64,000 bases of DNA from Microbacterium oxydans (lineage in GTDB: Bacteria > Actinomycetota > Actinomycetes > Actinomycetales > Microbacteriaceae), in assembly GCF_026559675.1 (NCBI RefSeq), contig NZ_CP092891.1:1054001-1118000 (forward strand), given 5' to 3'. The notes under the pieces are model-generated. The model was not told where the DNA came from. It made no database searches and saw only the letters and a program-made list of their open reading frames with translations. A program made the translations under genes and the position numbers. Positions 29,067-35,505 of this stretch are shown piece after piece. The first letter of the stretch is position 1. The number at the start of each line of letters is the position of its first letter.

Positions 29067-31190
29067 CTATTCGGCGGCCGGAGCGTCCTCGTCCGAGACG
29101 GCGGCGTCGGCGGGCACTGCGGCAGCGGGCGCCGCGAGAGCTGCGGCAGCCTCGGCGGCGGGCTCAGCCTCCGCCGGAGCGGGTGCCGGAGCGGGTGGCG
29201 CGGGCTCGGCGGGAGCGGGTGCTTCCGGTGCCGGTGCGTCGGGAGCGGGCACGACGGCTTCGACCGGTGCCGCGGGTGCAGCCTCGGGCTCCGGCGTCGA
29301 CGTGACTGTGGCGTCGGCGTCGGCGTCGGCTTCGGGTGCCGGGGCGTCGGCCGGAGCATCTCCGAGAAGCGGACGGTCGGGTCCGAGGGCCAGCAGCGAC
29401 GTGCTGGTCGACGGACCGGCTTCGCCGTTCAGCAGATAGCGGAACGTGACCGTCGTCCAGCGTGCGAGGACGTACTGCGTGAGGTTCGGACGGAGGTCGA
29501 TCGTCCCTGCTCCGGTCGCGTCGAGGACGATGCGGTCTCCGCCGCCTCCGCGGCCGTCGAGCAGCGCCTCCACCGTCGTCCCCGGAGCGCCGGTGATCGG
29601 AACGCTGTAGTGGACGGCCAGTTCGTCGTCGAAGGCGATCGTCGCGAGCGACCACGCCGGGCCCTCCGTCGGGTTCGCCGGGTCGACGGGGTCGACGGGA
29701 TCGACGGGGTCCACGGGGTCGACGGGGTCCACGGGATCGACGGGGTCCACGGGATCGACGGGGTCCACGGGATCGACCGGGTCCACCGGATCGACGGGGT
29801 CGACCGGGTCGACGGGGTCGACCGGATCGACGGGGTCGACCGGGTCGACGGGGTCGACCGGGTCGACGGGAATCACGGGAGTGGTGGGAGCCTTCGGCGG
29901 CGCGACGACCGGCCCGGTCTGCTCGACGGGCGGCTCCGTGGTCGTGTCCTCCACCGGGGCGACGGGTGCCTCGTCGGGCTCGGTGATCGGCACCTCGACG
30001 GCGTCGGACTCGTCGAGCTTCATCGACTCGTCCGGCTCGACGTCTGCGGCGATCGAGGACGCATCCTTGTCGCCGGCGCTGGGAAGGGACGTCGCGGGAT
30101 CGGCTCCCGCGAGTCCGGGGATGATGGCGGCGGCGGCGACGACACCGGCCACGACGAGCGCGGCCGAGCCTGCACCGACGAGCGCACCGAGACCGGTGAA
30201 CACTCCTCCGGTCGAACCTGCACCGGCGCCGCCGGTGGTCCCTCCAGCCGCGCCTCCTCCGCTTCCGGATCCCGCTCCGCCGCCGGACGCGGCGATCCCG
30301 GTGGTGGCGTGGCCGGCGAGGTCACCGCCGAACACGGCTCCGGGGATGCTCGAGGGCATGGCGGCCAGGGCGACGATCGGCGTTCCCGCGCCCTGCAGCG
30401 TCGCGAGGTAGCCGGACGCGCCGGTGACGCCGAGCACGAGCGGCAGCAGCACGAGGGCGAGGCGCTTGGAGACGTCCTTCGCTTCGGCGGCGACGATCAT
30501 GCAGCGGGCGCAGTCGTCGAGGTGCAGCTCGAGGCGCTTGTGGTCGCGGGTGCTGAGGTTGCCGCGTGAGTAGGCGCCGAGGTGCTCGATCGTCCACTGG
30601 CACTCGGAGCCTTCGGCCGCGCTGCGGAGGTGTGCCTGGATCCATGCCTCGCGAAGACCCTCGCGAGCGCGGAAGGCCAGCTGGGACACGGCGCCGGACT
30701 TCATGCCGAGGAGGTGGCCGACCTCCTGAGGCTTCATCTGCTCGATCTCGGTGTACCAGAGCACCTCCTGCCAGCGGGAGGGGAGGCTGCGGAACGCCTG
30801 GGCGGTCAGGCTGCGGTCGAGCGCTTCGTTCGCCGCCTGATCGGTGGTCTCGGGGTCGGGGACCGTGTCGAGCTCGTCGATCGCGCTCTCCCGGCGTGCG
30901 CGTCCCCAGCCGGCTGCGGTGTTGCGGATGCTGGTGAAGAGATAGGCGCGGAAGGAGCCGTTCGGGCCGCCGCCCTTGATGATCGCCTGGTAGATGCGCG
31001 TGTACGCCTCCTGCACCAGGTCGTCGGGATCGATGGACGAGGTGATGGACCGCGCGACGGCGATGCCGGAGGGGTAGTGGCGTCGCCAGAGTTCGCCGAA
31101 CGCTCCCGTGTCGCCCGAGCGGGCACGCAGGATCAGGTCGGCATCACCGATCGGTTCGTCGTGGGTCGTGTTCTCTTCGTGCACAATCAT
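29067..31190 (-). CDS. ECF sigma factor fused to zinc finger, membrane segments and VDP-repeat tail
   Basis: 707 residues. Sigma region 2 ([15 protein letters not shown], about 54-68) and region 4 ([15 protein letters not shown], about 136-180) are normal. Next comes an anti-sigma-type zinc finger with Cys197, His223, Cys227 and Cys230, a membrane helix (about 244-265), a Gly/Ser-rich stretch, a second helix (about 330-357), an acidic region, 21 VDP tripeptides (about 441-503), a beta-rich domain (about 510-600) and an acidic Pro/Ala tail. So sigma and a putative anti-sigma are one polypeptide. Topology is unclear because two helices would return the tail to the cytoplasm. No strong SD is seen. 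Its promoter box occurs twice more next door. Confidence 0.9.
29682..29870 (-). repeat. 21-unit 9-bp minisatellite encoding VDP repeats
   Basis: Twenty-one uninterrupted 9-bp units, mostly GTCGACGGG, ATCGACGGG, GTCCACGGG or GTCGACCGG, encode Val-Asp-Pro repeats in the tail of the sigma fusion protein. Substitutions are nearly all third-codon changes, so the peptide is kept while the DNA drifts. Copy number is expected to vary between strains. Confidence 0.95.
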
Positions 31191-31214: not shown

Positions 31215-31262
31215 GTCTCTACGAGGTGAGACGCGCGAGAGCGCCTCTCATCACGCGACTTC
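31215..31262 (-). promoter_or_regulatory. Promoter of the ECF fusion gene, copy S of a three-copy element
   Basis: On the minus strand GAAGTCGCGTGATGA (31262-31248) is followed by 14 nt, then CGTCTCA (31233-31227), 5 nt and TAGAGAC (31221-31215). The sigma ATG is 25 nt further on. CGTC is a frequent ECF -10 core, and the 15-nt box covers the expected -35. The same layout recurs at 31382 and 31632 on the plus strand, pointing to autoregulation by this sigma factor. Confidence 0.7.
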
Positions 31263-31381
31263 TCCATTCTCTCGCGAATCTCCCAGGGAAGCCACCCTTC
31301 CTGCGAACTCCGAGGCGATGCCGAGGCGATGCACGGCGGGCGCACGGCCCCGACCGGCGGAGCCCCGCAGAAGTTTTCTCG

Positions 31382-31429
31382 GAAGTCGCGTAATGAATCG
31401 ACCGGGGTGCCGTCTCATCCCATAGAGAC
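31382..31429 (+). promoter_or_regulatory. Promoter copy A of the ECF-type element
   Basis: GAAGTCGCGTAATGA (31382-31396), 14-nt spacer, CGTCTCA (31411-31417), 5 nt, TAGAGAC (31423-31429). Identical in arrangement to the promoter of the sigma gene, but oriented away from it and toward a structured region without a protein gene. The segment 31263-31381 between the divergent copies shows no gene. Confidence 0.7.
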
Positions 31430-31600
31430 AGCCGTACGGATCCCTCCGGGGGGCGGGATCCAGGTGCCGACGCGAGGGGTATTCGCGCCGGTCGGGCGGG
31501 TCGGGAGCCTCGGGGGAGGAGTGCCCGGCCGCCCGTCTCAGGAGGGGGAAGGGGGCCGTCGCTCTGGGGAACGGCGGCCTCCCCCGCACCTGCGGATCGG
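31423..31600 (+). ncRNA. Candidate structured small RNA, copy A
   Basis: Behind promoter copy A lies a series of stems: GGATCCC/GGGATCC (31438-31444 with 31455-31461, loop TCCGGGGGGC), a 9-pair stem with one mismatch (31467-31475 with 31483-31491), a long arm GGGCGG...CCGCCC (31494-31534) with an inner CCT/AGG, and GGCCGTCG/CGGCGGCC (31554-31579, loop CTCTGGGGAA). The 3' end is a guess after the last stem. Copy B keeps the loops but changes stem bases in matched pairs, which supports a functional RNA rather than a coding region. Confidence 0.6.
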
Positions 31601-31631
31601 GGGTGCGGAAATCTCTCCGAAGAATTTCTGA

Positions 31632-31678
31632 GAAGTCGCGTAATGAATCGGTGAGTGCTTCGTCTCATCCATAGAGAC
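31632..31678 (+). promoter_or_regulatory. Promoter copy B of the ECF-type element
   Basis: GAAGTCGCGTAATGA (31632-31646), 14-nt spacer, CGTCTCA (31661-31667), 4 nt, TAGAGAC (31672-31678). The spacer sequence differs from copies A and S while its length is fixed at 14 nt, as expected for a promoter under selection. Confidence 0.7.
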
Positions 31679-31835
31679 AGCCGTACGAACTCCTCCGGGG
31701 GGCGGAGTTCAGGCGCTGGTGCGGGGGCAATCGCACCGGTGGGGCGGGTCGGGAACCTCGGGGGAGGAGTGCCCGACCGCCCCTCTCACGAGGGGGACGA
31801 GGCCGCCGATCTGGGGAACGGCGGCCTCCCGCCCC
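31672..31835 (+). ncRNA. Candidate structured small RNA, copy B
   Basis: Tandem partner of copy A with the same order of stems: GAACTCC/GGAGTTC (31687-31693 with 31704-31710, loop identical to copy A), an 8-9-bp stem (31716-31739), GGGGCGG...CCGCCCC (31741-31783) and GGCCGCCG/CGGCGGCC (31801-31826, loop ATCTGGGGAA). In the first stem three base pairs differ from copy A and all three stay complementary. It runs toward the 3' end of nagA; the last stem, extended by GA/TC, could end transcription. 31836-31886 holds nothing recognisable. Confidence 0.6.
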
Positions 31836-31886
31836 GACACGAAGGACCGGAGAGCGCAGAGCTGCGCGTCGCGCGGTGCGCTGTTC

Positions 31887-33059
31887 CTAAGCGAGCAGCC
31901 GGGGCCCTGACCACACTCGCGCGACGTGCAGTTCCGCATCCAGGAGCACCGCATCCCCGAGCATGCCGGGCTGCAAGGCGCCCAGCGCCTCGTCACGTCC
32001 GATCGCCCGCGCCGGCGTCTCGGTGAGCGCGCGGACAGCCTCCGCGAGCACGACTCCCGCCGCGACCGCGCGCTGCAGCGCCACGTCCTGCGTGAGCGTC
32101 GATCCGGCGATCGAGCCGGTGTTATCGGCTCGGGCGATGCCGTTCTCGACCGTCACGCTCACGGCGCCGAGGTCGTAGTGGCCGTCCGCGCTTCCGGCGG
32201 CGGCCATCGCATCCGTGATCAGCGCCACCCGGCCCGGGGCGGAGTCGAACACGAGCTTCACGACGTGCGGGTCCAGGTGCACGTCGTCGGCGATCGCCTC
32301 CAGCACGACCCGGTGGTCGGCCGCAGCCGCGAGCACGGGGCCGGGAGCACGGTGGTGGATGCCGGGCATGGCGTTGAACGCATGGGTCAGGATCGAGGCA
32401 CCCGCTTCGAACGCGGCGACCGCCATCGAGGCATCGGCGTCGGTGTGACCCACCGCGGCCGCCGACCCCGCGGCGACGATCTGCCGGATCGCGTCGAGCC
32501 CGCCGGGGAGCTCGGGGGCGATCGTCACCTGGCGGATCGTGCCGCGCCCGGCCTCCAGTAGCGCCGCGACATCGGCGGCCACCGGGTGACGCAGCAGCGA
32601 CGGCTCGTGCGCGCCGTGGTGCCCGGGGTCGAGGAACGGCCCCTCGAGGTGCGAGCCGAGGATGTCAGCATCCGTCTCCGTCAGATCGGCGATCGTCGCG
32701 ACGCTGAGCGCGAGTGCGTCCAACGGCGCGGTCACGAGCGACACCACGGCGCGGGTCGTCCCGTGCGCGCGGTGCAGATCGCGAGCGGTGCGGATCGCCT
32801 CCACGCCGTCGTCGAACGAGGCTCCGGCGCCGCCGTGGCCGTGGATGTCGACGAAACCCGGTGTGAGCAGAGCGCCGGGGCCGGCGACCGACGCGGCATC
32901 GACGACCTCGTCGGCGGGCGTCCAGTCGGAGCCCGTGCCGCGGCCGACGACGAGGCCGTCCTCGATGCGGACCCAGCCGTCCTCGGTGATCTCGCCGCGA
33001 TCGACGATCCGGGCGGAGTGGAGGACCAGTGAACCGGTCGCGGAGGAGTGGGTGCTCAA
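31887..33059 (-). CDS. nagA: N-acetylglucosamine-6-phosphate deacetylase
   Basis: 390 residues of the amidohydrolase fold. Metal and substrate motifs are present: DIHGHGGAG, HLEGPFLDPGHHGAH, AVGHTDAD, HAFNAMPGIHHR and the catalytic Asp in LITDAMAAAG. It removes acetate from GlcNAc-6-P, giving glucosamine-6-P for NagB. The start appears to be TTG at 33059, overlapping the GH20 stop as TTGA, with GGAG about 8 nt upstream; no ATG or GTG alternative precedes the conserved N-terminus. It is the second gene of a GH20-nagA operon. Confidence 0.95.
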   Translation of the reverse strand: MSTHSSATGSLVLHSARIVDRGEITEDGWVRIEDGLVVGRGTGSDWTPADEVVDAASVAGPGALLTPGFVDIHGHGGAGASFDDGVEAIRTARDLHRAHGTTRAVVSLVTAPLDALALSVATIADLTETDADILGSHLEGPFLDPGHHGAHEPSLLRHPVAADVAALLEAGRGTIRQVTIAPELPGGLDAIRQIVAAGSAAAVGHTDADASMAVAAFEAGASILTHAFNAMPGIHHRAPGPVLAAAADHRVVLEAIADDVHLDPHVVKLVFDSAPGRVALITDAMAAAGSADGHYDLGAVSVTVENGIARADNTGSIAGSTLTQDVALQRAVAAGVVLAEAVRALTETPARAIGRDEALGALQPGMLGDAVLLDAELHVARVWSGPRLLA

Positions 33060-35412: not shown

Positions 35413-35505
35413 TATGCTCATACCGTCGCGACTGGCGTCTGGGTGGACTACCACCGGGGAGCGACTGACCACGGAATTCGACCGCGCGCCTGGGCCGATA
35501 GGAAC
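35413..35505 (+). promoter_or_regulatory. ZTP (pfl) riboswitch with upstream -10, before glyA
   Basis: A -10 TATGCT (35413-35418) is followed by the hallmark ZTP aptamer blocks: GTCGCGACTGGCG (35425-35437), the GGTGG...CCACC hairpin (35442-35454), GGGGAGCGAC, and the 3' block CCGCGCGCCTGGGC (35482-35495). This RNA senses the purine precursor ZTP/ZMP, which builds up when 10-formyl-tetrahydrofolate is short, and switches on one-carbon genes. The two genes behind it, glyA and folD, are classic members of this regulon in actinobacteria. The expression platform probably involves 35500-35540 and the SD AAAGGAG. Confidence 0.9.

Follow-up and report, generated by a model that had tools for sequence, protein, structure and literature searches.

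Tandem structured RNAs with G-rich apical loops beside an ECF52-like sigma factor gene in Microbacterium oxydans, and their possible relation to 6C RNA

What is encoded by two adjacent hairpin-rich stretches between a sigma factor gene and nagA in Microbacterium oxydans, what switches them on, and what might they bind? In the window, by which we mean the whole stretch of DNA that was analysed (64,000 nucleotides), positions 31382-31836 hold two tandem units at a spacing of ~250 bp, each made up of a promoter, GCGTAATGAATCG-N10-CGTCTC, followed by a hairpin-folding region. A first-pass annotation had read the region 31382..31835 as two paralogous structured RNAs with G-rich loops, not recognised as a named family, with ECF-type promoters and under the control of the neighbouring sigma factor, and both units are indeed present at these positions.

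Layout of the locus

The features of the locus are as follows, in window coordinates.

29067..31190, - strand: ECF sigma factor-zf-HC2 fusion, ECF52-like, with a long C-terminal extension containing Asp-Pro-Val repeats
31228..31256, - strand: promoter motif of the sigma gene, GCGTGATGAGAGG ... CGTCTC, a motif common to both RNAs and indicative of autoregulation
31388..31416, + strand: ECF-type promoter of RNA copy A, with -35 GCGTAATGAATCG at 31388-31400 and -10 CGTCTC at 31411-31416, conserved in homologues
31421..31589, + strand: RNA copy A, whose four hairpins carry G-rich apical loops (144 bits; ends are those of the match to covariance model R1)
31438..31461, + strand: copy A hairpin 1, GGATCCC-TCCGGGGGGC-GGGATCC, with covariation
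31476..31482, + strand: copy A hairpin 2, apical loop and closing pair GGGGTAT, with 4 contiguous bases complementary to the 6C loops
31508..31519, + strand: tip of copy A hairpin 3, CCTCGGGGGAGG, where conservation of the RNA is highest
31563..31572, + strand: copy A hairpin 4 loop, TCTGGGGAAC, in which GGGGAAC is complementary to GUUCCCC of loop 1 of the genome's own 6C RNA
31638..31666, + strand: ECF-type promoter of RNA copy B, with -35 at 31638-31650 and -10 at 31661-31666
31670..31836, + strand: RNA copy B, with the architecture of copy A (R1 match, 157.5 bits)
31687..31710, + strand: copy B hairpin 1, GAACTCC-TCCGGGGGGC-GGAGTTC
31756..31767, + strand: copy B hairpin 3 tip, CCTCGGGGGAGG
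31810..31819, + strand: copy B hairpin 4 loop, TCTGGGGAAC
31887..33059, - strand: nagA, convergent neighbour outside the RNA, used as a synteny marker

The RNA units are flanked by a divergent sigma gene on one side and by nagA, which points at them, on the other, and they are therefore independent units and the leader of neither gene. Elsewhere in the window, at 35418-35502 (+), a ZMP/ZTP riboswitch (RF01750, 52 bits) stands upstream of a glyA-like ORF (named by eye), which is a known arrangement.

A structured, noncoding RNA family

As the first-pass annotation had noticed, three of the seven pairs of the first stem differ on both sides between copies A and B while the TCCGGGGGGC loop is identical, a C-G pair of the second stem becomes U-A, and a U-G pair of the last stem becomes C-G with the TCTGGGGAA(C) loop retained. 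Single-sequence folding of the + strand gave z = -1.2 for copy A and z = -4.0 for copy B, and folding of the - strand of copy A gave z = -3.0; folding of this kind is insufficient as proof on its own, and it is the comparative evidence that decides. Iterative profiles run on the fetched loci yielded 77 distinct copies spanning nearly the whole profile, of which 59 were left at <93% identity and 53 were aligned. The six left out were those of L071 and L072 (insertions), L027, L044 and L054 (one degenerate copy each) and L021 (hairpin 2 lost).

Across the 53 homologues, 91.7% of the cells of a 50-pair structure are standard pairs (86.1% in shuffles), changes on both sides are seen in 33 of the 50 pairs (16.2 in shuffles), and such both-side changes fill 154 cells compared with 45.4 in shuffles; none of the 500 shuffles, which take no account of kinship, attained the pairing, pair or cell figures. 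Sliding the partners by 1-3 columns left a pairing of 38-56%. The weak pairs are those of columns 8-136 (22/48 sequences), 91-132 (21/52) and 88-135 (31/52), in part an effect of the alignment. The excess of both-side changes bears out the selected RNA structure that had been proposed from the two copies. The same alignment contains 171 G-U cells and 46 A-C cells, an imbalance that identifies the + strand as the RNA. Its architecture comprises an AGAG/CUCU closing stem, a GCC/GGC stem below hairpin 1, hairpin 2, a long hairpin 3, and a hairpin 4 without a U tract.

Coding conservation, which the annotation had named as a possible refutation, did not arise. The spacing from loop 1 to loop 3 is distributed over the three phases as 26/9/9 in the 44 of 53 sequences that have both loop strings, and no reading frame is open in all 53; because the spacing shifts phase and no frame is common to all, a coding sequence is ruled out and we conclude that the RNA is noncoding.

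Rfam returned no match at the gathering threshold and chance-level matches only at a relaxed one, in keeping with the earlier view that the RNAs lie outside the named families, and no description of the family was found in the open PMC literature. For 6C RNA (RF01066) there was no match at 31360-31860 on either strand at E up to 10. The hint that 6C RNA might be found here on the opposite strand is therefore wrong as stated, but its direction was sound, as a 6C RNA with complementary C loops lies elsewhere in the genome. The two copies almost certainly represent one undescribed structured RNA family, and sequence comparison favours the proposed pair of paralogous structured RNAs with G-rich loops.

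Distribution and copies

Of the 295 genomes of the genus, 79 had a blastn match to copy A, that of M. oxydans studied here included, and the covariance model search that had been suggested found homologues with the same stems, R1 reaching E<=0.01 in 103 of the 295. R1 matches at homologous sigma loci come from Microbacterium oxydans, M. paraoxydans, M. maritypicum and others. By blastn coordinates, ten genomes carry two full or partial tandem copies. Two genomes, G149 and G160, have a further copy at a second locus (L041 3081-3295 and L044 2935-3133), where it lies between hydrolase-like and aminopeptidase-like genes (named by eye) with no sigma gene within the 6 kb stretch read. Outside the genus R1 matched 3 of 349 genomes; by eye these matches had the appearance of terminators or coding sequence and were rejected. 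A plasmid search gave no matches. The promoter is accompanied by one or two GGGG loops at five of seven Agromyces loci; at two of four Leifsonia loci there is a promoter but no GGGG loop.

The sigma factor and its promoters

The sigma protein matches PF04542, PF13490 and TIGR02937 above cut-off, and PF08281 and PF04545 below theirs. An ECF sigma domain and a zf-HC2-type zinc finger thus occur in a single protein, as in ECF52, and DPV repeats and hydrophobic stretches are visible on reading its translation. Because no C-terminal carbohydrate-binding domain was found in Pfam at E 0.001, we term the sigma factor ECF52-like only.

In the genome of this strain, a strict form of the promoter motif occurs before the sigma gene, before copies A and B and at one site inside long open frames; near-exact matches (<=3 mismatches) are confined to copies A and B, and a looser pattern gives five sites, one beyond the strict set. 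Among 106 sigma loci (86 selected for the RNA and 20 selected as missed by R1), 103 have a promoter in the RNA direction and 76 have one before the sigma gene itself, and the reversed pattern occurs in none of the 106. Since the RNA promoter is kept in more loci than the sigma promoter, the most conserved of the targets seen is the RNA and not autoregulation. In the 20 loci missed by R1, the RNA-direction promoter was found 19 times and the sigma-direction promoter six times, and nagA was recognised in 18 of the stretches; the sole locus without an RNA-direction promoter, L136, has only 172 bp to nagA and no RNA. Within the smaller search space of these 20 loci, R1 matched eight at E<=0.01 and 12 at E<=0.1. 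For the 57 Microbacterium-type loci with >300 bp upstream, the corresponding counts are 49 for the RNA promoter and 35 for the sigma promoter; 22 loci, mostly of other genera but with two Microbacterium records among them, were tallied apart.

The sigma gene is present in 64 of 65 RNA-bearing genomes (R1 E<=1e-4, among 198 genomes typed for CsrA), and in the exception, G127, the RNA match lies at a contig end. Its N-terminal 245 residues match 216 of 295 genomes at E<=1e-30, a figure that may include paralogues. What these data point to is a promoter common to the RNAs and to an apparently autoregulated sigma gene, as an ECF-dependent RNA should have, and control of the RNAs by the neighbouring sigma factor is, judged from sequence, very likely. 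The presence of the same -35/-10 motif before the sigma gene on the opposite strand, and its retention across homologous loci, argue for the ECF-type promoters of the first-pass annotation and for their assignment to this factor.

The GAGAC that follows the -10 CGTCTC makes an inverted repeat with it, spanning the likely start site (31411-31431 and 31661-31680, and also at the sigma promoter); this repeat is possibly an operator. Upstream of the sigma gene's ECF promoter, at 31264-31271 (-) of the window, a GAGAATGG-like box recurs in relatives and, as seen by eye, is retained where the ECF autopromoter has been lost; it is possibly a housekeeping -10. In other species, promoter matches at five of 20 loci inspected by eye (L157, L159, L169, L171 and L175) are followed by short G-rich leaders and by ORFs for exported or small membrane proteins. 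From these matches the sigma factor may have further targets, and their G-rich leaders would make them 6C-sensitive, which we regard as a lead only. At L160 and L161 (G178, G095), another apparently noncoding structured stretch, with CCCC hairpin loops, stands behind the same promoter type.

Conserved G-rich apical loops

Loop sequences are better conserved than the stems, which drift freely while the tips CxCCGGGGGGCGG, CCTCGGGGGAGG and CTGGGGA change little. In minimum free energy (MFE) folds of 103 RNAs, the mean number of apical GGGG loops is 3.09 versus 0.29 in dinucleotide shuffles, and that of apical CCCC loops is 0.01. Four GGGG loops are found in 41 RNAs, three in 37, two in 19, one in five and none in one; the 19 RNAs that R1 missed have a mean of 1.95, short of four. 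Hairpin 2 is absent from three second copies, and hairpins have been gained in L071 and L072 (by eye). Such loss and gain of hairpins at constant loop identity, again judged by eye, is as expected of a multivalent decoy.

Considered as a possible regulon-wide signal, the hairpin 3 tip CCTCGGGGGAGG occurs at six sites in the genome, two of them in the RNAs and two inside long open frames (L150, L153); the remaining two are L155, a terminator-like hairpin, and L154. A rough estimate from base composition predicts a few such sites by chance, yet a reversed-pattern control gave none. At L155 (G000:C1:3715033), the hairpin bearing the CCTCGGGGGAGG tip lies 3' of a gene that ends in a wall-anchor-like tail.

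These loops bear on several accounts of what the region does. That it is structured DNA, or a stack of terminators between the sigma gene and nagA with no function in trans, would fit its intergenic position and the terminator-like look of hairpin 4, but the conservation of the loops above the stems, the conserved RNA-direction promoter and the further copies in G149 and G160 with no sigma gene nearby all count against this account, which we hold to be very improbable. We give equally little credence to a G-quadruplex of the G tracts as the functional element (for stability, or for ligand or metal sensing): there are ~4.9 runs of at least four G per RNA, and four G loops in the best-conserved clade, but by MFE four GGGG loops are reached in only 41 of 103 RNAs and three or fewer in 62, and hairpin 2 has been lost from the three second copies.

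A decoy of the CsrB/RsmZ type, titrating a protein that recognises GGGG in a hairpin loop, would suit a multi-hairpin array with repeated loops in tandem copies. CsrA is encoded in the same genome, and it is positively associated with the RNA, being present in 31 of 65 RNA-bearing genomes versus 17 of 133 others (p 3e-7, kinship-naive). It is, however, absent from 34 of the 65 RNA-bearing genomes (198 genomes typed), which rules it out as the general partner, and GGA is missing from the consensus of the hairpin 1 and hairpin 2 loops. We know of no other candidate protein, and a protein decoy seems to us decidedly unlikely.

6C RNA in the genus and loop complementarity

RF01066 matched 27 of 247 genomes at E<=0.01 (3 above cut-off), with the M. 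oxydans genome under study not among them. Of the 24 matches that were read, 20 had acs on one side and a tad-type ATPase gene on the other; one of the rest was next to acs where the contig ends, and three were at other sites. The 20 matches at the acs/tad site imply that 6C is real in the genus and that the Rfam model is insensitive. The strain's own 6C was located by way of the sigma-6C distance in other genomes, from which a position was predicted and a 400 kb stretch inspected. A 6C-like RNA missed by Rfam was found between acs and the tad-type ATPase gene (G000:C1:2767727-2768142, L288), with the loops GGUUCCCCCAAUC and AUUCCCCCCGUG. The synteny prediction proved correct in four of four further genomes, so that 6C was present in all five RNA-bearing genomes examined in this way. 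Both RNAs were read in 16 genomes, 14 by pattern and two (G013, G223) by eye, 11 of the 16 having been chosen because Rfam had detected 6C; a seventeenth genome, G189, shows the RNA region, and its 6C is a weak Rfam match.

6C is also at its usual place in four genomes (G059, G120, G193 and G207) that lack the sigma gene at E 1e-30, and the accessible text of PMC9569102 describes it as spread across Actinobacteria and among the few such sRNAs, from which it follows that 6C does not depend on the G-loop RNA. In mycobacteria, 6C/B11 base-pairs through its C-rich loop with mRNA leaders, according to the available parts of PMC12395582 and PMC8628891. The portions of PMC9569102 and PMC8628891 at hand report data that suggest 6C to be essential in M. 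tuberculosis and an inhibition of M. smegmatis growth by its over-production; we found in these portions no description of how 6C activity is lowered.

Loops 1, 3, 4 and 2 of copy A have 7, 6, 6 and 4 contiguous bases complementary to the loops of the strain's own 6C, so that the RNA complements another sRNA of its genome, as a sponge should. The predicted loop duplexes of both copies range from -11 to -16 kcal/mol (best per loop), and base-shuffled loops were as low in 2/300 and 11/300 cases for hairpin 4 and in 23-51/300 for the other loops. Duplex energy alone therefore proves little, hairpin 4 being the only one distinguished from shuffled loops, and good pairing with C runs is to be expected of any G-rich loop, a point against the sponge reading. 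The bases flanking RNA loop 1 and 6C loop 2 agree by eye, C with G in 7/7 genomes and U with A in 6/6, with G177 as the exception, but this agreement follows clades and is no proof of pairing.

An alternative is a base-pairing sRNA under ECF control, comparable to the sigma-E-dependent sRNAs of enteric bacteria, which would pair through its G loops with C-rich segments of mRNAs directly, the complementarity to 6C being incidental. Such an sRNA would fit the promoter, the separate transcription unit and the loop conservation that we see, C runs are plentiful in GC-rich mRNAs, and for three of the four loop types many shuffles pair with 6C equally well. Near-identical, low-information loops in varying number are nevertheless better suited to the titration of one partner, and a ready-made partner is present in 6C, so direct action on mRNAs strikes us as rather unlikely.

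A possible sigma-induced sponge for 6C

We propose that both copies encode a single trans-acting small RNA, which may act as an ECF-induced sponge for 6C, a reading whose chances we put at close to even. Its observed basis consists of the fold, the strand, the promoter motif, the synteny, the loop enrichment, the strain's own 6C and the loop complementarity. With several G-run loops, an on-demand sigma promoter and 6C in the same genome, the RNA would titrate 6C. In this mechanism an envelope signal would release the sigma-zinc-finger protein, which its domains suggest to be membrane-anchored, and the released sigma factor would transcribe the RNAs along with its own gene. Each RNA, predicted to form a branched three-hairpin domain and a fourth hairpin with up to four apical loops containing runs of 4-6 G, would bind the C-run loops of housekeeping 6C by loop-loop pairing, and 6C would thereby be drawn off mRNAs with G-rich leaders. 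The fuller proposition, that a multivalent 6C sponge is the principal and most conserved target of the ECF52-like sigma factor and relays the envelope signal through de-repressed mRNAs with G-rich leaders, in some species including the sigma factor's own protein-coding targets, is one that we advance tentatively, at somewhat less than an even chance.

If true, these proposals would describe a dedicated circuit from sigma factor to sponge and would provide 6C, for which no sponge was found in the open PMC literature, with a regulator; an ECF52-like sigma factor would also have been given a concrete output. Control of 6C would, on the sponge reading, be directly testable in Microbacterium. For the new RNA family, an alignment, a structure and a promoter are at hand.

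Comparison with known systems

The sigma-E sRNAs MicA, RybB and MicL resemble the RNAs studied here as the noncoding arm of an ECF envelope-stress sigma factor; they are, however, sigma-E-dependent, Hfq-dependent mRNA regulators of enteric bacteria that are not known to be encoded beside the sigma gene, and their folds are unlike that of the present RNA. CsrB, RsmY and RsmZ are decoy RNAs built as hairpin arrays with an ANGGA loop core. They share with our RNA the repetition of one loop motif along an array of hairpins and the principle of multivalent titration, but the loop core here is GGGG, not ANGGA, and the consensus loops of the first two hairpins have no GGA.

ECF52 SCO4117 likewise combines an ECF domain and a zinc finger in one protein, with a Pro-rich C-terminal extension to which the DPV-repeat extension described above may correspond, but the motif reported for it, CSGYN-17bps-SRHA, is unlike the motif found here (PMC5826349, PMC8999054, as far as their text was available). 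In the same available text we found no RNA output of ECF52/SCO4117, the terms 'srna' and 'non-coding' occurring 0 times. The RoxS sponge of B. subtilis is also an RNA that antagonises another sRNA, but in the accessible part of PMC8216469 we found no link to the sequence studied here or to an ECF factor.

6C RNA itself (RF01066; B11) resembles its proposed partner in general character, both being actinobacterial RNAs with strong hairpins and homopolymeric loops. In Microbacterium, however, 6C has C runs in two loops and lies between acs and the tad-type ATPase gene, whereas the RNA described here, which has no Rfam match, is encoded on the + strand behind an ECF-type promoter, and its hairpins, in place of the two C-run loops that define 6C on its transcribed strand, present G runs in up to four loops.
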